From Gammaproteobacteria bacterium (lineage in GTDB: Bacteria; Pseudomonadota; Gammaproteobacteria; DRLM01), in assembly GCA_023266095.1 (NCBI GenBank), contig JAHFRV010000027.1, positions 1 to 41,676 on the forward strand: a DNA stretch of 41,676 nucleotides, written 5' to 3'. The notes below the pieces were generated by a model. That model saw only the letters and a list, made by a program, of their open reading frames with translations. It was not told the origin of the DNA and searched no databases. Positions 30,957 to 40,851 of the stretch are shown one piece after another. The translations under genes were made by a program, and so were the position numbers. The stretch's first letter is position 1; each line of letters starts with the position of its first letter.

Positions 30957-31583
30957 ATGAAACGATTAGCAACACTGATGTTATTGGCAGGTCTACTGGT
31001 ATGTATTGGACAACGACAAGCATCGGCCATCTCCATAAGTCTGGAACCCGTCATTCCGACGGTGACGGCCGGCGACAGCCTGGATGTGGCTGTCGTTATC
31101 AGCGGTCTGTCCGCCGGTGGTCCACCCTCCATCGGCGGCTTCGATATCGAAGTCTCTTTTGATGACACCATCGTGACCCCGGTCGCGGTGGTTTTCGGCC
31201 CGTTCCTCGGTGATCCGTTATTGTTCGAGGCTTTCACCGATGCCGTGTTTTTGGCGGACATCGTCAAGCTGGCGGAGGTGTCCTTGTTGTCGCCCACAGG
31301 GCTGGATGCCTTACAACCGGGCAGCTTCGTCTTGGCCACCCTGTCCTTTGATGCCATAGCCACGGGCGCGCCCGCCTTGTCACTCAGCCAAGCGGCGGTG
31401 TTCGACGCCTTCGGTAACCCCATACCCGAACCTAATGCACTGTTGATCTTTAGTATCGGTCTGCTTGGGCTACAGCTGGCGCGGCGCAAAAGGCAGGTGA
31501 ACCCAAGTGAGCGCGACCAAACTCAGCCCATAAGCATCACGCCGCCTCTTCCGGCCGGCGCTGACGCTGATAAAGGAACTTGA
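30957..31583 (+). CDS. Cohesin-domain protein with PEP-CTERM sorting signal
   Basis: Exported surface protein (208 aa). A signal peptide ends QRQASA, then one cohesin-type beta-sandwich spans about residues 25-150 (PTVTAGDSLDVAVVISGL, IGGFDIEVSFDDTIV, VKLAEVSLL, LATLSFDAIATG). The PEP-CTERM signal follows: PIPEP, a hydrophobic stretch LLIFSIGLLGLQLA, and RRKR, which is recognised by exosortase. About 28 further residues after RRKR run antisense into the end of nrtD, an unusual tail. ATG 30957 has AGGA seven bases upstream; ATG 30936 is also possible. It is probably co-transcribed with the dockerin protease 43 bases upstream and is its likely anchoring partner. Confidence 0.85.
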   Translation: MKRLATLMLLAGLLVCIGQRQASAISISLEPVIPTVTAGDSLDVAVVISGLSAGGPPSIGGFDIEVSFDDTIVTPVAVVFGPFLGDPLLFEAFTDAVFLADIVKLAEVSLLSPTGLDALQPGSFVLATLSFDAIATGAPALSLSQAAVFDAFGNPIPEPNALLIFSIGLLGLQLARRKRQVNPSERDQTQPISITPPLPAGADADKGT

Positions 31584-32331
31584 GCACCGCGGCGCGATGA
31601 TGGTTGTAGGCGGCGTCATCGGCCAGCTCGACCCGTTTACGCGGACGCGGCAGTTTGATGTCGAGTATCTCGCCGATGGTGGCGGCCGGGCCGTTGGTCA
31701 TCATGATGATGCGGTCGGAGAGCAGCACCGCCTCGTCCACATCGTGCGTCACCATCAGCACGGTGTTCTTGAGACGGCCATGGATTTCCATCACCGAGTC
31801 CTGCAAGCTGGCGCGGGTCAAGGCGTCGAGCGCACCGAAGGGCTCGTCCATCAGCAGCAGTTTGGGTTCCATGGCCAGCGCGCGGGCGATGCCCACCCGC
31901 TGCTTCATGCCGCCGGAAATCTCGGTGGGACGTTTGTTCAAGGCGTGTTCCATATGCACCAGCGCCAGATTCTCCCGCGTCCATTCATCGCGTTGCTGTT
32001 TATTCTTGGTCGCGCCGAACACCTTGTCGACGCCCAGCCGCACGTTTTCATACACCGTCAGCCACGGCAGCAGCGAATGATTTTGAAACACCATCGCCCG
32101 CTCCGGACCCGGTCCGGCGATCTCTCTCCCCGCGCACAACATGGCGCCGCTGCTCGGCAAAATCAGCCCTGCGACCAGATTGAGCAGGGTGGATTTGCCG
32201 CAGCCCGAGTGGCCGATGATGGAGACGAATTCCCCTTGCTCGACCGACAGGTTGATATCGCGCAGGGCATGAAAGCGTCCGCGCTTGGTGTCGAAGATCA
32301 TTTCCACCTTTTCCAGTTGCAGATATTTCAC
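31537..32331 (-). CDS. nrtD: Nitrate ABC transporter ATP-binding protein
   Basis: Cytoplasmic ATPase (264 aa) of the nitrate importer. It has Walker A GHSGCGKST, Q-loop FQNHSLLPW, signature EISGGMKQR, Walker B LLLMDEPFGALD and the H-loop VTHDVDEA, all intact. The NrtA-like C-terminal domain of cyanobacterial NrtC is absent, so it is NrtD/NasD-like. The GTG start at 32331 has GAGG upstream. It is the last gene of nrtA-nrtB-nrtD and overlaps the convergent cohesin gene by 47 bases. A decayed fragment of a second copy lies at 27584-27702. Confidence 0.94.
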   Translation of the reverse strand: MKYLQLEKVEMIFDTKRGRFHALRDINLSVEQGEFVSIIGHSGCGKSTLLNLVAGLILPSSGAMLCAGREIAGPGPERAMVFQNHSLLPWLTVYENVRLGVDKVFGATKNKQQRDEWTRENLALVHMEHALNKRPTEISGGMKQRVGIARALAMEPKLLLMDEPFGALDALTRASLQDSVMEIHGRLKNTVLMVTHDVDEAVLLSDRIIMMTNGPAATIGEILDIKLPRPRKRVELADDAAYNHHRAAVLKFLYQRQRRPEEAA

Positions 32332-32403: not shown

Positions 32404-33300
32404 TCATTCGTAATTAAAACGGCGCGCCATCAGCAGCAGTAGTTGTTCCAGCAGCAGGCCGATGATGCCGACCACGAAGATGGCGATGATGATGTGGGCG
32501 ACGTTGAGGTTGTTCCACTCGTACCACACCCAGAAGCCGATCCCCACGCCACCGGTGAGCATCTCGGCGGCCACGATCACCAACCAGGCTACGCCGAGAC
32601 CGAGACGCACACCGGTCAGCGTATAAGGCAGCACCGCCGGGAAGAGGATCTTGGTGAAGATCTTCCACTCGGACAAATTGAGCACCCGCGCCACGTTCAT
32701 ATAATCCTGCGGCACCTTGGTTACGCCCACCGCGGTATTGATGATGATGGGCCAGATGCTGGAGATGAAGATCACCCACACCGCCGCCGGCTGCGCCTCC
32801 TTGAACACCAGTAGGCCGATGGGCAGCCAGGCCAGCGGCGACACCGGACGCAGCAGCGAAATGATGGGCGCGGTCATGCCGTTGAAAAAGGCGAAGCGGC
32901 CGATCATGAAGCCCAAGGGAATGCCGATCAGCGCCGCCATGCCGAAGCCCAGCCCCACCCGTTCCAGCGAGTGCAGAATATTCCAGCCGATGCCTTGGTC
33001 GTTGGGACCGTTGACATAGAAGGGATCGCTGAACAACTCCACCGCCGACAGCCAGGTTTCGTGCGGTCCGGGCAGCCCCTCGCTGCCCTTACTGATCAAG
33101 GCCCACAGCAGCACGAACAATACCAATCCCAACACCGGCGGCACGAGTATGCGCACCACCCACCGGCCGGTGTCGGCAAAGCGTGACGCCGCAGGCGGTG
33201 GCACCGCTATTACGGGCGGAATAATCACCACGGCCTTTTCAGACTTGGGCTCGGTCTGCTGCGGGCTATCCAGGGTCTTTTTCATTGCAAGCACCGTCAT
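32404..33300 (-). CDS. nrtB: Nitrate ABC transporter permease
   Basis: Inner-membrane permease (298 aa) of the nitrate importer, with about six to seven membrane segments. The N-terminal ~55 residues are polar and proline-rich (VIIPPVIAVPPPAA). The binding-protein-dependent permease domain shows RVGLGFGMAALIGIPLGFMI, LRPVSPLAWLPIGLLVF and the EAA-like loop MNVARVLNLSEWKIFTKIL. ATG 33300 was chosen over longer starts since AAGGAG lies six bases upstream. It is 11 bases from nrtA and 72 from nrtD. Confidence 0.94.
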   Translation of the reverse strand: MTVLAMKKTLDSPQQTEPKSEKAVVIIPPVIAVPPPAASRFADTGRWVVRILVPPVLGLVLFVLLWALISKGSEGLPGPHETWLSAVELFSDPFYVNGPNDQGIGWNILHSLERVGLGFGMAALIGIPLGFMIGRFAFFNGMTAPIISLLRPVSPLAWLPIGLLVFKEAQPAAVWVIFISSIWPIIINTAVGVTKVPQDYMNVARVLNLSEWKIFTKILFPAVLPYTLTGVRLGLGVAWLVIVAAEMLTGGVGIGFWVWYEWNNLNVAHIIIAIFVVGIIGLLLEQLLLLMARRFNYE

Positions 33301-33311
33301 GTTCCGCTCCT

Positions 33312-34580
33312 TTACACCTTGATCTTGAAACTTGCCGCGTATTGCGCGGGATTCTTGCCATCCCAGGTCACGCCGTCGATGAGCTTGGCGGAACGCATCG
33401 CGTCTTTGGGTACCGGGACCTTGAGCTGGGCCGCGGCCTGCTTGTACAAATCGATCTGATTCACCTGCTTCGCCACCGCGAGATAATCCGGCTCGGCGAT
33501 GAGCAGGCCCCAGCGCCGGTGCTGGGTGAGGAACCACATCGCGTCGGACAGATAAGGGAAGTTCACCGCGCCGTCGTTATAGAACTTCATATAGTTGGGG
33601 TCTTCCCACTTCTTGCCGATGCCGTTGTCGTAATGACCGAGAAAACGGCCCTCGATCACCTCTTCCGGCGCATTGACGTAGGATTTGCTGGCGATGATCT
33701 TCGCCACCTTGGGCCGGTTGACGGTGGCATCGATGTGCATCGACGCTTCCATCACCGCCATTAGCATGGCGCGAGTGGTGTTGGGATATTTCTGTACGAA
33801 CTCCGCGGTGGTACCCAACACTTTTTCGGGATGATCTTTCCATATTTCCTGGGTAGTGACGGCAGTGAAACCGATCTTGTCGAAAATGGCGCGCGCGTTC
33901 CACGGTTCGCCGACGCAGAAGCCGTCCATGTTGCCGATGCGCATATTCGCCACCATCTGCGGCGGCGGGACCACGATGGTCTTCACGTCATTGAAGGGAT
34001 GAATGCCGTTGGCCGCCAACCAGTAATAAAGCCACATGGCGTGGGTGCCGGTGGGAAAGGTCTGGGCGAAGGTGTATTCGCGTTTCTCACCGTCCACCAG
34101 CTTTTTCAGCGAGGCGCCGTCGGTCACGCCTTTGTCCTTGAGCTGATTGGCGAGGGTGATGGCCTGGCCGTTTTGATTGAGGCTCATCAGGATGGCCATG
34201 TCCTTCTGCGGTCCACTCAAGCCGAGATGCACGCCGTAGACGAGGCCGTACAGCACATGCGCCGCATCGAGTTCACCGTGGACCAATTTATCGCGCACCG
34301 CCGCCCAGCTCGCTTCTTTAGACACGGTGACGTTGAGGCCGTATTTCTTGTACAGGCCCAGTTCATGGGCCATCACCACGCTGGCGCAATCGGTAAGCGG
34401 GATAAAGCCAATGGTGAGATCGGTCTTCTCCGGTTTGTCGGAGCCGGCCGCCCAGGCGCTGGAACGCAACCACGACGGCACCGCGCCCAGCATCGCCGCG
34501 CCACCCACCGCGAGGCCCACCCCTTTCAAAAAACCGCGCCGTGATAATCCCGGCTTGTTTTGATCGCGCTTGTCACTCAC
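33312..34580 (-). CDS. nrtA: Nitrate ABC transporter periplasmic binding protein, Tat-exported
   Basis: Periplasmic nitrate-binding protein (422 aa). The N-terminus carries a twin-arginine signal (LSRRGFLKGVGLAVGGAAM), then the NrtA/NasF fold (LTIGFIPLTDCASVVMAHEL, SWAAVRDKLVHGELDAAHVL, NGQAITLANQLKDKGV, GFCVGEPWNARAIFDKIGF). The GTG start at 34580 has AAGGAG six bases upstream; the frame stays open further upstream, but that part coincides with a leader terminator and is not coding. The Tat signal separates it from the cytoplasmic sensor NasS, which is related but unexported and not present in this window. First gene of nrtA-nrtB-nrtD. Confidence 0.95.
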   Translation of the reverse strand: MSDKRDQNKPGLSRRGFLKGVGLAVGGAAMLGAVPSWLRSSAWAAGSDKPEKTDLTIGFIPLTDCASVVMAHELGLYKKYGLNVTVSKEASWAAVRDKLVHGELDAAHVLYGLVYGVHLGLSGPQKDMAILMSLNQNGQAITLANQLKDKGVTDGASLKKLVDGEKREYTFAQTFPTGTHAMWLYYWLAANGIHPFNDVKTIVVPPPQMVANMRIGNMDGFCVGEPWNARAIFDKIGFTAVTTQEIWKDHPEKVLGTTAEFVQKYPNTTRAMLMAVMEASMHIDATVNRPKVAKIIASKSYVNAPEEVIEGRFLGHYDNGIGKKWEDPNYMKFYNDGAVNFPYLSDAMWFLTQHRRWGLLIAEPDYLAVAKQVNQIDLYKQAAAQLKVPVPKDAMRSAKLIDGVTWDGKNPAQYAASFKIKV

Positions 34581-34610
34581 AGTTTTCTCCTTATTGACGT
34601 TCACTAAAAA

Positions 34611-34674
34611 AGGCAAATAAAAAAGGCGCCGATCCGCACATGGATGAAACATATCCATGCCGATAGACGCCTTT
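34611..34674 (-). terminator. Intrinsic terminator in the nrtA leader
   Basis: On the minus strand AAAGGCGTC (from 34674) pairs with GGCGCCTTT (to 34622) around a second stem GCATGGAT/ATCCATG, followed by a U-run (TTTTTTATTT, 34615-34624). It sits between the predicted start of transcription and the nrtA GTG, so it must be bypassed for expression: a classic attenuator. Confidence 0.75.
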
Positions 34675-34680
34675 GTCGGT

Positions 34681-34741
34681 GAAGCGGACCGCCGTTGGTC
34701 CACTTCAGTATTCGCTGATCGCGGCGTCGCACACCGCGTCA
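34681..34741 (-). promoter_or_regulatory. NasT/ANTAR-type antiterminator hairpins in the nrtA leader
   Basis: The predicted RNA begins near 34741. Hairpin 1 (34720-34738) has a stem GCGGTG/CGCCGC with a five-base loop. Hairpin 2 (34681-34706) has a ten-base-pair stem, GAAGTGGACC/GGTCCGCTTC, closing the six-base loop AACGGC. A at loop position 1 and G at position 4 are the residues ANTAR proteins require. The terminator follows directly. Hairpin 1 is not canonical, so the match is to one full module plus context. nasT is encoded about 4 kb away. Confidence 0.6.
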
Positions 34742-34752
34742 TCGATACTAAG

Positions 34753-34767
34753 GCAAGAGCCGTACCA
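34753..34767 (-). promoter_or_regulatory. Sigma-54 promoter of nrtABD
   Basis: Minus strand TGGTACGGCTCTTGC: GG and GC are ten bases apart, and only one base differs from the TGGCACG-N4-TTGC consensus. Predicted start near 34741, exactly before the antiterminator hairpins. A GCGCCA-N5-TGGCGC repeat at 34857-34873 (about -116 to -132) may be an enhancer site. Confidence 0.7.
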
Positions 34768-35164
34768 ACGTTCCGTACGTCGTTCAAAAAGTCTGAATAA
34801 CAGGGGTTTTAAGCTGATCGGCACTGCGAATGGCACGCAAGGCTCACACGGAACTTGCGCCAAATGATGGCGCTGCTTGCCCATCACGGTGCTTTTGGGT
34901 GCGCCCATTGAATTGATACAGAGCAGCAAGCGTGCTTTACCGCCCTATAAACCGCCATAATGAAAATACGCCAGCCAGTGGCGCTGATATGCATTTAAAG
35001 TGTGTTCGCATCCGGCAGCAAACACCAGCTGTTGGTGATACCGACCAAACGAGGCAAAGGCAATCCTATTGCGCGTCCTTTTTAAGCGTGCACTACGACT
35101 ACAGCACACTGTCATCAGCCAAGGTACGATAGCGTGCATCATTTCGAGTCTTGAAAAAATATAT

Positions 35165-35276: not shown

Positions 35277-35291
35277 TGGCATGATAGCTGC
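35277..35291 (+). promoter_or_regulatory. Candidate sigma-54 promoter of narK
   Basis: TGGCATGATAGCTGC has GG and GC ten bases apart and a good -24 half (TGGCATG), but CTGC instead of TTGC at -12. The predicted start near 35303 leaves a 42-base leader before the GTG at 35345. It is weaker than the nirB and nasT promoters. Confidence 0.5.
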
Positions 35292-35344
35292 TCTACAAAC
35301 GCGCAGGCCGGACAGATTCTGTGCAGTTTATCGGAGACATTATC

Positions 35345-36667: not shown

Positions 36668-38359
36668 ATGAGTGTCGACAGGCTTGAGGTACGGCTGGGA
36701 ATCGCTAGCGAGTGTGGTCATCGCGAGTCGAACGACGACTACGCGGCGATGATCGAGTTGGACGATGCCAGCGCGCCGCGTACCGTCATTGCCGCCATCG
36801 CCGACGGGGTGAGCGGCGCCGGCGGGCGTGTCGCCTCGGAGACGGTGGTGCGGGGTTTTCTCGACGGCTTCCGTAGTGCGGCGGCGACACTCGCGGTGGA
36901 GCGCGCCGCGTTCCGGGTGCTGGGCGCGCTCAATCGCTGGGTGCATGCCCAGGGACAACACTATGCCGTCACTCGCGGCATGGCCACGACCTTTACCGCC
37001 GCCATTCTGTGCGGCCGGCGTTTGCATATCGTGCATGTCGGCGACACCCGGCTCTATCGCCTGCGCGAAGGTGGCGTATCACTGCTCACGCGCGACCACA
37101 CTCACAATCATCCGGACATGCGGCATGTGCTGATCCGCGCGGTCGGTCTTGAGGAAACGGTGCACGCCGATTATGAGGCGCACAGTCTGATGGCACATGA
37201 CCGGCTGCTGCTGTGCAGCGACGGCGTGCACGCGAGTCTGCAACCGGCGGCGCTGCGCAAATTACTCGCCGAGCGCGCCGCGCCCGAGGAAACCGCCGCG
37301 CGTATCGTGCAATCGGCGCTGGAGCGCGGCAGCCAGGACAATGTCACCGCGTTGGTGCTCGACGTGTTGGCCATACCCGCGGCCGAACGTCTGGATCTCG
37401 AGGCCGCGGTCGCGGACTTGCCGATACTCGATCTGCCCAAGGCCGGGGATACCGTCGATGATTTTCTCCTGAAAGAGCTGATCTCGGACGGCCGCTACAG
37501 CCGCTTGTTCCGGGCCGAAGACACGCGCGAGCCGCGCGAGGTGGCCATCAAATTTCCGCATCCGCGCGTGGCCAGCGCGGCGGCCTACCGCCGCGCGTTC
37601 GTGCGCGAGGCCTGGGTGGCGGCGCAGGTGCGCAGCCCCTACCTCTGCGAAGTGATTGAATTGCCCGCCGGCTGCCAGACACGGCTGTACTCCGTCATGC
37701 CTTACTACGCGGGAGAAACGCTGGAGCAACGCCTGCGCCGTGCGCCGCCGGTCAAGTTTGAGGAAGGGGTACAAATCGGCATCCAACTCGCCAAGGCGGT
37801 GTATGGCCTCAATCGCCGCGACATCATCCACCGCGACGTCAAGCCTGACAATGTCTTGCTGCCGGCCGCGGGCGGCTTGCGGCTGGTGGATCTCGGCGTG
37901 GCGCGCTTGCCGCGGCTTGAGGTGATGAATGATGAGGACATTCCCGGCACGCCCAGTTACATGGCGCCGGAATTGTTCGAGGGGCGGCCCGGCGACGCGC
38001 AATCGGATGTCTATGCCCTCGGCGTGACGCTCTACCGGCTGTTCACCAATCACTATCCCTATGGCGAGGTCGAGGCTTTCTCGCGCCCGCGGTTTAGCAA
38101 ACGGGTTCCGCTCAATCATCATCGCGGTGATTTACCGGCGTGGCTGGATGCGGTGCTGGCGCGCGCCACCGCGATCGATCCGGCGGCGCGTTATGCGGAT
38201 GCGATGGAACTGGCCTTCGATCTCGAACACAACCTGGCGCATGGGCCGCGGCTGGTGATACGGCGCCAATCGCTCTACGAACGCAATCCCTTACGCTTCT
38301 GGCAAGTCGTGGCGCTGTTACTGCTAGTGATGCTGATCCTGTCGCTCACCAACCGCTGA
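36668..38359 (+). CDS. Bifunctional PP2C phosphatase / Ser-Thr protein kinase
   Basis: Two opposing enzymes on one chain (563 aa). Residues ~1-235 form a PP2C phosphatase: ESNDDYAAM, AAIADGVSG, MATTFTAAIL, HVGDTRLYRL, LLCSDGVH and SQDNVTALVL. Residues ~265-530 form a Hanks kinase: VAIKFPHP (ATP Lys), IIHRDVKPDNVLL (catalytic loop), DLGVAR in place of DFG, GTPSYMAPELF and SDVYALGVTLYRLF. The glycine loop is degenerate (SDGRYSRLF). One C-terminal membrane helix (FWQVVALLLLVMLILSL) anchors it, with both enzymes facing the cytoplasm. It lies 45 bases after narK on the same strand, so it probably modulates nitrate transport or its control; the target is unknown. Confidence 0.92.
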   Translation: MSVDRLEVRLGIASECGHRESNDDYAAMIELDDASAPRTVIAAIADGVSGAGGRVASETVVRGFLDGFRSAAATLAVERAAFRVLGALNRWVHAQGQHYAVTRGMATTFTAAILCGRRLHIVHVGDTRLYRLREGGVSLLTRDHTHNHPDMRHVLIRAVGLEETVHADYEAHSLMAHDRLLLCSDGVHASLQPAALRKLLAERAAPEETAARIVQSALERGSQDNVTALVLDVLAIPAAERLDLEAAVADLPILDLPKAGDTVDDFLLKELISDGRYSRLFRAEDTREPREVAIKFPHPRVASAAAYRRAFVREAWVAAQVRSPYLCEVIELPAGCQTRLYSVMPYYAGETLEQRLRRAPPVKFEEGVQIGIQLAKAVYGLNRRDIIHRDVKPDNVLLPAAGGLRLVDLGVARLPRLEVMNDEDIPGTPSYMAPELFEGRPGDAQSDVYALGVTLYRLFTNHYPYGEVEAFSRPRFSKRVPLNHHRGDLPAWLDAVLARATAIDPAARYADAMELAFDLEHNLAHGPRLVIRRQSLYERNPLRFWQVVALLLLVMLILSLTNR

Positions 38360-38517: not shown

Positions 38518-39093
38518 TCAGCCCAGCAATTCCTCAGCCTCGATGACGCTTTCCGCCACCTCGATGAGACGCTTATTGCGGTTCATCGCCAGTTTACGCA
38601 GAGCGTGATAGGCTTCGTCTTCACGGTAACCTCGCCGCTTCATCAAAATGCCTTTGGCGCGCTCCAGCAGCTTGCGTTCGGCGAGACTGCTTTTGGCCTT
38701 AGCCAATTCCCCGCGCAATTCTTGGAACGCGGCGAAGCGCGCCACCGCAGTCTGCAGGATCGGCTTGATGCGATGCGGCTGCAAACCGTCCACCACATAG
38801 GCGCTCACCCCGGCTTTCACCGCCGCGGAGATGGTTTCCTTGGCGTCGTCCTGGCAAAACATCACGATCGCACGAGGATCATTACGGCTGATCACATGCA
38901 GATGCTCGAGCATGTCGCGGTCGGGCGATTCCATGTCGATGATGATGACGTCCGGCTGCGCCTCGCGCACCTTGGTATAGAGATCGGTGCCGGACTCCAA
39001 TACCGCGGTCACGTGATAACCGGCCGTCGTCAAGGCGCCCACCACTTCAGACGAACGCTTCCCGTCTTCGTCCACCACCAATACGCGCAACAT
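38518..39093 (-). CDS. nasT: ANTAR-domain response regulator, nitrate antiterminator
   Basis: RNA-binding regulator of 191 aa. The N-terminal receiver domain (LRVLVVDEDGKRS, VIIIDMESPDRDM) is followed by a coiled segment and the ANTAR domain (LAERKLLERAKGILMKRRG, EDEAYHALRKLAMNRNKR). Size and sequence match NasT, which binds leader RNA to allow read-through of terminators in nitrate-assimilation genes and is normally held inactive by NasS. The start ATG 39093 has AGGGG upstream. It is convergent with the kinase gene and has its own sigma-54 promoter. Its likely target is the leader of nrtA in this window. Confidence 0.92.
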   Translation of the reverse strand: MLRVLVVDEDGKRSSEVVGALTTAGYHVTAVLESGTDLYTKVREAQPDVIIIDMESPDRDMLEHLHVISRNDPRAIVMFCQDDAKETISAAVKAGVSAYVVDGLQPHRIKPILQTAVARFAAFQELRGELAKAKSSLAERKLLERAKGILMKRRGYREDEAYHALRKLAMNRNKRLIEVAESVIEAEELLG

Positions 39094-40352: not shown

Positions 40353-40387
40353 AAAAAAAAGCCTCGCTAAACAGCGAGGCTTTTTTT
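40353..40387. terminator. Bidirectional intrinsic terminator
   Basis: GCCTCGCT (40361-40368), loop AAAC, AGCGAGGC (40373-40380): a perfect 8-bp stem flanked by eight A on the left and seven T on the right. It serves both the PEP-CTERM gene and the convergent cold-shock gene. Confidence 0.95.
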
Positions 40388-40402
40388 GAGACTAGGTCGG
40401 AT

Positions 40403-40606
40403 TTATTGGGGAACGACGTTCACCGCGCTCGGGCCCTTGGCGCCGCGCTCGGTTTCAAAACTCACCGTCTGTCCTTCCGCCAGGGATTTGAAGCCGCTGG
40501 CTTGGATCGCGGAGTGATGGACGAATACGTCGGCACTACCGTCGGAAGGGGCGATGAATCCAAAACCTTTGCTGTCGTTAAACCACTTAACTGTACCTGT
40601 AGCCAT
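40403..40606 (-). CDS. Cold-shock domain protein
   Basis: Small nucleic-acid-binding protein (67 aa) of the CspA family, an RNA chaperone. It begins [11 protein letters not shown] and has RNP1 KGFGFI and RNP2 VFVHHSAI, ending [11 protein letters not shown] 40606 was chosen over earlier in-frame starts because it gives the standard length and has AGAGG upstream. It is monocistronic, ending just before the shared terminator. Cold induction cannot be judged from the sequence. Confidence 0.95.
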
Positions 40607-40644
40607 TCTGATTACCTCTGTATAAATAAACAAACAATGTATTA

Positions 40645-40851
40645 GTGTGCAGATTGCTGCTGAGAAATTACGGAAGGAATTACACTCTACACTGCGAGGA
40701 ACTACCGGAACTGCTACAAGACAAAAAGCTGCAACTGGGCCGATCTTATACCCTTCTCAGCGACAATGCCAGCTATTTAACGCTCAGCAGCGGTTTTGAT
40801 GGACATACCATCCCCGGCACAGAGACGATCCGTTACAGTAGCCGTGTTTAG
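40645..40851 (+). other. Spacer with doubtful 68-codon reading frame
   Basis: The 241-base gap between the cold-shock gene start and the methyltransferase stop contains an open frame ([10 protein letters not shown]..., ending YSSRV) that overlaps the methyltransferase stop by four bases. It has no ribosome binding site and no recognised domain. It may be a gene remnant or chance. Confidence 0.25.

Follow-up and report, generated by a model that had tools for sequence, protein, structure and literature searches.

A sigma-54 box and a probable ANTAR-type transcription attenuator upstream of the nrtABD nitrate-uptake operon of a gammaproteobacterium

The nasF operon of Klebsiella, devoted to nitrate assimilation, is transcribed from a nitrogen-controlled sigma-54 promoter. 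Its leader presents two hairpins, P1 and P2, whose hexaloops begin with A and have G as their fourth base, with P2 lying over the terminator (PMC3369936). Its regulator, NasR, has a nitrate-binding NIT domain. In published ANTAR leaders the recognition pair is P1 plus P2, with P2 within the terminator, A1 and G4 in the loops and no stem shorter than 3 bp (PMC3369931, PMC3369936, PMC8934654), and a C:G pair closes the loops (PMC7496416). In eut leaders the linker between P1 and P2 is 5-12 nt. In Paracoccus denitrificans, nasA is served by leader hairpins, a NasT-type regulator and control at two levels, and nasT itself is under NtrC control (PMC5424462, PMC3795266). Known NasT proteins are kept inactive under NasS until nitrate or nitrite binds, and in Paracoccus the system becomes constitutive without NasS (PMC3795266).

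I consider here the leader of nrtA in a 41,676-nt stretch of DNA (the window) from a gammaproteobacterial genome assembly. The nrtABD nitrate-uptake operon is very probably under the control of a transcription attenuator that is initiated by sigma-54 and regulated by an ANTAR protein. The locus resembles Klebsiella nasF in its P1 and P2 hexaloops with A1 and G4, in the placing of P2 over the terminator and in its position before a nitrate-assimilation operon. It differs in that the regulator is NasT, with a receiver-like and an ANTAR domain, and in an extra 5' hairpin, P0. With Paracoccus nasA it shares the type of regulator, the leader hairpins and two-level control, but NasS was not found in this genome assembly and the target is a transporter operon; here nirB-nasA has a sigma-54 box and no attenuator. 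The dual-hexaloop antiterminator logic is also that of the Enterococcus eutP leader and EutV, the protein that NasT most resembles among solved structures, although signal, genes and promoter type differ. Finally, positions 31-70 of the Rfam narK RNA model RF03032 match P1 and P2, including CGACAAAGRCGUC, while its first 30 positions are unmatched; this partial match, at 32.2 bits, does not reach the curated cut-off of 43.2. The next-best RF03032 matches in the genome, considered as other NasT targets, were rejected, as they lie within the coding sequences of recN-like and ilvH-like genes.

The leader and how it would act

The features of the leader and operon are as follows.

34856..34874, minus strand: palindrome AGCGCCATCATTTGGCGCA, candidate NtrC-like enhancer site, some 115-133 bp ahead of the start
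34767-34752, minus strand: sigma-54 -24/-12 box TGGTACGGCTCTTGCC, from sequence and conservation
34741, minus strand: predicted transcription start (+1), 12 nt past the C of the -12 GC
34741-34716, minus strand: P0, accessory hairpin UGA CGCGGUG UGCGA CGCCGCG A UCA, with no AnnGnn hexaloop
34707-34680, minus strand: P1, 11-bp stem, TGAAGTGGACC[AACGGC]GGTCCGCTTCA, with A1, G4 and a C:G closing pair
34677-34666, minus strand: P2, GAC[AAAGGC]GUC (GTC in DNA), second ANTAR hexaloop, with A1, G4 and a C:G closing pair
34674-34619, minus strand: intrinsic terminator AAAGGCGTC...GGCGCCTTTTTT (arms also given as AAAGGCGUC...GGCGCCUUUUUU), fold -25.1 kcal/mol
34587..34592, minus strand: Shine-Dalgarno sequence AAGGAG of nrtA
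33312..34580, minus strand: nrtA, GTG start, NMT1_2 substrate-binding protein with Tat signal
32404..33300, minus strand: nrtB, permease, same operon, predicted start
31537..32331, minus strand: nrtD-like ATPase, same operon

Along the minus strand, sigma-54 box, start, P0, P1, P2, terminator, AAGGAG and the GTG of nrtA follow one another in turn, and the leader is a canonical ANTAR attenuator of the NasT/NasR/EutV type. The box has GG at -25/-24 and GC at -13/-12, within the context TGGCACG-N4-TTGCW. This placement puts the start of the RNA near 34741, as a sequence-only reading of the locus had proposed, and gives a leader of 161 nt up to the nrtA GTG. That reading also had the sigma-54 start feeding an ANTAR attenuator before nrtA, and this is supported. 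Both hexaloops, AACGGC in P1 and AAAGGC in P2, follow the A1/G4 rule, on stems (11 bp and 3 bp) that reach the published minimum of 3 bp.

The reading had proposed folding the leader, and the fold is strong: -65.9 kcal/mol, with a z of -5.1 and none of 200 shuffles as low. The intrinsic terminator that it placed before nrtA is there, at 34674-34619, ahead of the GTG at 34580. It had also described a second hairpin with loop AACGGC and a ten-base-pair stem. This hairpin exists and is P1, but its stem has 11 bp, or ten when the outermost pair is left out. What did not survive is the choice of pair. P0 and P1 had been taken together and the true P2 missed, because the minimum-energy fold displays only the terminator, which shares the loop and 3' strand of P2.

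Those two elements serve as the 5' arm of the terminator; P2 and terminator are mutually exclusive, and it is this double use that makes antitermination possible. The whole leader folds at -59.5 kcal/mol with the terminator and at -48.8 with P2 forced. By this calculation P2 costs 10.7 kcal/mol, which would be the gap for a bound protein to bridge.

In the scheme I propose, a sigma-54 activator, probably NtrC, would launch transcription at 34741 when nitrogen is limiting. The nascent RNA would fold into P0 and then P1. If nothing is bound, the next stretch would form the terminator and the RNA would end near 34619. NasT, when present and active, would instead be recruited at P1 and stabilize P2, consuming the 5' arm of the terminator, and the polymerase would read through into nrtA. 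In this scheme NasT binding, read-through and the role of NtrC are drawn by analogy from related systems. An NtrC gene is present in the genome (758.8 bits), together with seven related activators (eight NtrC-like in all). The palindrome AGCGCCATCATTTGGCGCA may be an NtrC site: its two arms are kept in a congener, where change is confined to the centre. A strict scan for the NtrC consensus did not list the palindrome and gave no match in the nrtA leader.

Some points tell against the model. P2 of the window is the weakest in the set, its stem having just 3 bp and a C.U mismatch, and its spacer from P1 is 2 nt, against 5-12 nt in eut leaders. That spacer is counted beside the full 11-bp P1 and would be longer if P1 frays; in relatives it runs from 0 to more than 40 nt. 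In addition, rpoN was not found in the assembly, which is 96% complete, although it is present in both congeners and in three other genomes of the family that were searched. Its absence is likely to be an assembly gap.

Conservation of the box and the hairpins

A single box proves little: matches of the quality of TGGTACGGCTCTTGCC number 11, against 10.2 expected by chance. The significance of the nrtA box comes instead from its conservation. The congener L090, whose NrtA is 95% identical, has the same 15 bases of the box, TGGTACGGCTCTTGC. Upstream regions were taken from 80 NrtA relatives and three loci of the same family, of which 82 were long enough for counting boxes; a strong -24/-12 box is found in 75, where shuffled sequence gives 2.7 and the reverse strand 3.

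For the hairpins, a covariance model was built from the P1-P2 segments of 33 relatives, with the window and the congener left out. Its sole significant match in the window is the nrtA leader (36 bits, E 9.9e-7; the second-best has 10.1 bits). Over the 3.3 Mb genome the same site has E 8e-5, and the model finds no second significant leader, the runner-up (18.1 bits at E 1) being noise. Among 84 relatives' loci, 56 of the 57 matches lie just upstream of nrtA.

Covariation in the ungapped alignment of the 33 segments scores 0.677, against 0.209 after shuffling and no more than 0.156 after sliding, and 124 cells are changed on both sides of a pair (39 in shuffles), figures in which the inner pairs are biased by the choice of relatives having 5 bp or more in P1 and 3 bp or more in P2. 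The outer pairs of P1 (columns 1-4) were under no such selection and still pair in 67-88% of sequences. The A, A and G positions of the P2 loop are invariant in the 33 relatives, and the C:G closing pair is found in all 33 for P2 and in 31 for P1. When hexaloop hairpins between box and P2 were collected by stem alone, ignoring the letters of the loop, A1 and G4 were present in 63 of 77. About 5 would be expected from the letters alone, and resampled sequence is expected to give 0.97 hairpins of this kind.

Closer to home, nothing has changed in the congener L090 in the core of the box, the P1 loop or P2, and almost nothing from P2 to the T run, while the flanks drift. Its P1 stem has an A-T to G-C change. 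One G.A mismatch also falls in the middle of the congener's P1, where the loop and flanking pairs are kept. In two more distant members of the family, L091 and L092, the loops of P1 and P2 read AACGGC and the P2 stem is 5 bp long. Thus far sequence and comparison establish the box, P1, P2, the terminator, their order, the overlap of P2 with the terminator, and their conservation. In the Methylophilus leaders (L024, L026, L027) about 70-90 nt, with other hairpins among them, separate the first hexaloop from P2, much more than eut leaders tolerate as a linker.

The 5'-terminal hairpin

P0 is a stable hairpin (-14.1 kcal/mol) with the loop UGCGA, or a GCG triloop in the minimum-energy fold. In the congener its stem is kept through U.G to C-G and G-C to G-U changes, with the loop CGCGA. 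L091 and L092 have other non-hexaloop hairpins in its place, and in other members of the family the slot holds an AAAGUAC loop or a GNRA tetraloop. Farther afield, the slot is a third AnnGnn hexaloop in L002, L021, L033, L042, L051 and L078, plus weaker cases, and a tetraloop, pentaloop or other hairpin in Herbaspirillum and Rhodoferax. Some relatives lack the extra hairpin altogether, P1 itself adjoining the start, and several leaders have a hexaloop in the upstream slot and none in the middle hairpin. From this variety it follows that P0 occupies a 5' slot in which some leaders have a hexaloop and others do not. Pairing of the 3' arm of P0 (GACGCC) with P2 (GGCGUC) was also considered; it is possible and kept in the congener, yet P0 is stable and forms first.

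Two other readings of the leader have to be weighed. The sequence-only reading saw in the first hairpin a possible variant recognition element, and the canonical third hexaloop that several relatives carry in that very slot speaks for the idea. It is too much, however, to expect recognition by NasT of a hairpin with no hexaloop, no A1, no G4 and no C:G closing pair, in the window as in three same-family leaders, when P1 and P2, both downstream, already supply the full dual motif; the loops UGCGA, CGCGA and AAAGUAC and the GNRA tetraloop make such a role for P0 very unlikely. Most likely P0 is a structural or spacer hairpin at the 5' end, in a slot that holds a third hexaloop in some relatives. 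The leader as a whole might also be a terminated small RNA with a function of its own, akin to ncS35 of Burkholderia, given that Rfam ncS035 matches it with 25.9 bits (E 1.5e-4). That score is far under the curated cut-off of 79 bits, the likeness amounts to three GC-rich hairpins and a terminator, and the ncS35 paper never mentions nitrate. Attenuation is favoured by the position before nrtA and by the overlap of P2 with the terminator, and I regard an independent small RNA as extremely improbable.

NasT and its input

The remaining features of the window bear on the supply of NasT and on its possible targets.

38518-39093, minus strand: nasT, receiver-like and ANTAR domains (Pfam)
39144-39129, minus strand: sigma-54 box TGGCATAAGCCTTGCT before nasT
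7125-7110, minus strand: sigma-54-like box directly before nirB
35277-35292, plus strand: sigma-54-like box directly before narK, encoding a NarK-type transporter

That nasT lies in the same window had been noticed before; it is moreover the only ANTAR gene in the genome. The closest solved structure to its product is EutV 6WSH (E 1.8e-21), aligned over its length. Residues of EutV have been tested for RNA binding (PMC8934654), and NasT keeps the positions aligned to E158, Y162, M170, N171 and R175, but not that of N173.

Attenuators were sought behind the nirB and narK boxes and rejected. The leader at nirB is only about 30 nt and that at narK less than 60 nt, and neither shows a hexaloop or terminator. 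The narK box, like that of nasT, is conserved in the congener. A PP2C phosphatase fused to a Ser/Thr kinase (36668-38359, plus strand) adjoins the NarK-type nitrate transporter, a pair that recurs in L003, L024, L026, L041, L043, L058 and L081. The window also holds an Rfam cspA thermoregulator match (40354-40739, minus strand, 110.6 bits).

What tells NasT to act? The sequence-only reading assigned nitrate presence to the second layer of control. No NasS homologue was found in the assembly, 96% complete, by the NMT1_2 profile or by a NasS query, which returns NrtA alone. The genome's NMT1_2 proteins are NrtA, with 368 bits, and an unrelated one with 29, whereas two real NasS proteins score 190 and 244 on the same Pfam model. 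The 29-bit protein (C40) was rejected as NasS, since its N-terminus is signal-like and it has an SsuC-like permease as its neighbour. Among relatives, nasT is usually directly upstream of nrtA; two that were checked have no nasS-like neighbour, and a second strong NMT1_2 protein occurs in only 2 of 12 genomes. With NasS missing from the assembly and a second strong NMT1_2 protein from most of these relatives, the nitrate layer is an assumption.

An alternative is that the attenuator works as proposed but NasT carries no report of nitrate, being active whenever it is made or subject to another protein. The lack of NasS and the scarcity of NMT1_2 proteins fit this, as does the constitutive state of Paracoccus on loss of NasS (PMC3795266). 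In one version the dose of NasT is what counts. The box before nasT, 50 nt upstream of the gene, is identical in the congener, and another genus of the family has TGGCATGTAGGTTGCT in that place. Since nasT has a sigma-54 box of its own, its supply also looks nitrogen-controlled, and with both nasT and nrtA behind such boxes the terminator would be a feed-forward gate by which nitrogen limitation is read twice. On the other side, the assembly already lacks rpoN, probably through a gap, and nasS could have been lost from it likewise; a different nitrate sensor could exist; and the logic of an operon for nitrate uptake favours nitrate as the input. On balance, NasT acting without word of nitrate is a serious possibility that falls somewhat short of even chances. 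I put forward more tentatively, as a conjecture that probably claims too much, that NasT of this lineage works without NasS, through its dose from the second sigma-54 promoter or through another sensor, and that the leaders gain and lose a third hexaloop, having two to three tandem recognition hairpins.

A sigma-54 promoter followed by an ANTAR leader is ordinary and of a known kind; what is unusual here is the absence of NasS and the variable slot for a third hairpin. The sigma-54-initiated attenuator offers a clean, conserved case of control of start and control of elongation placed in series on one nitrate-uptake operon, and it raises the question of what turns NasT on and off when there is no NasS. 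Leaders of this one operon differ in how many ANTAR hexaloops they have, a point of interest for the published debate over whether one hexaloop or two are needed.
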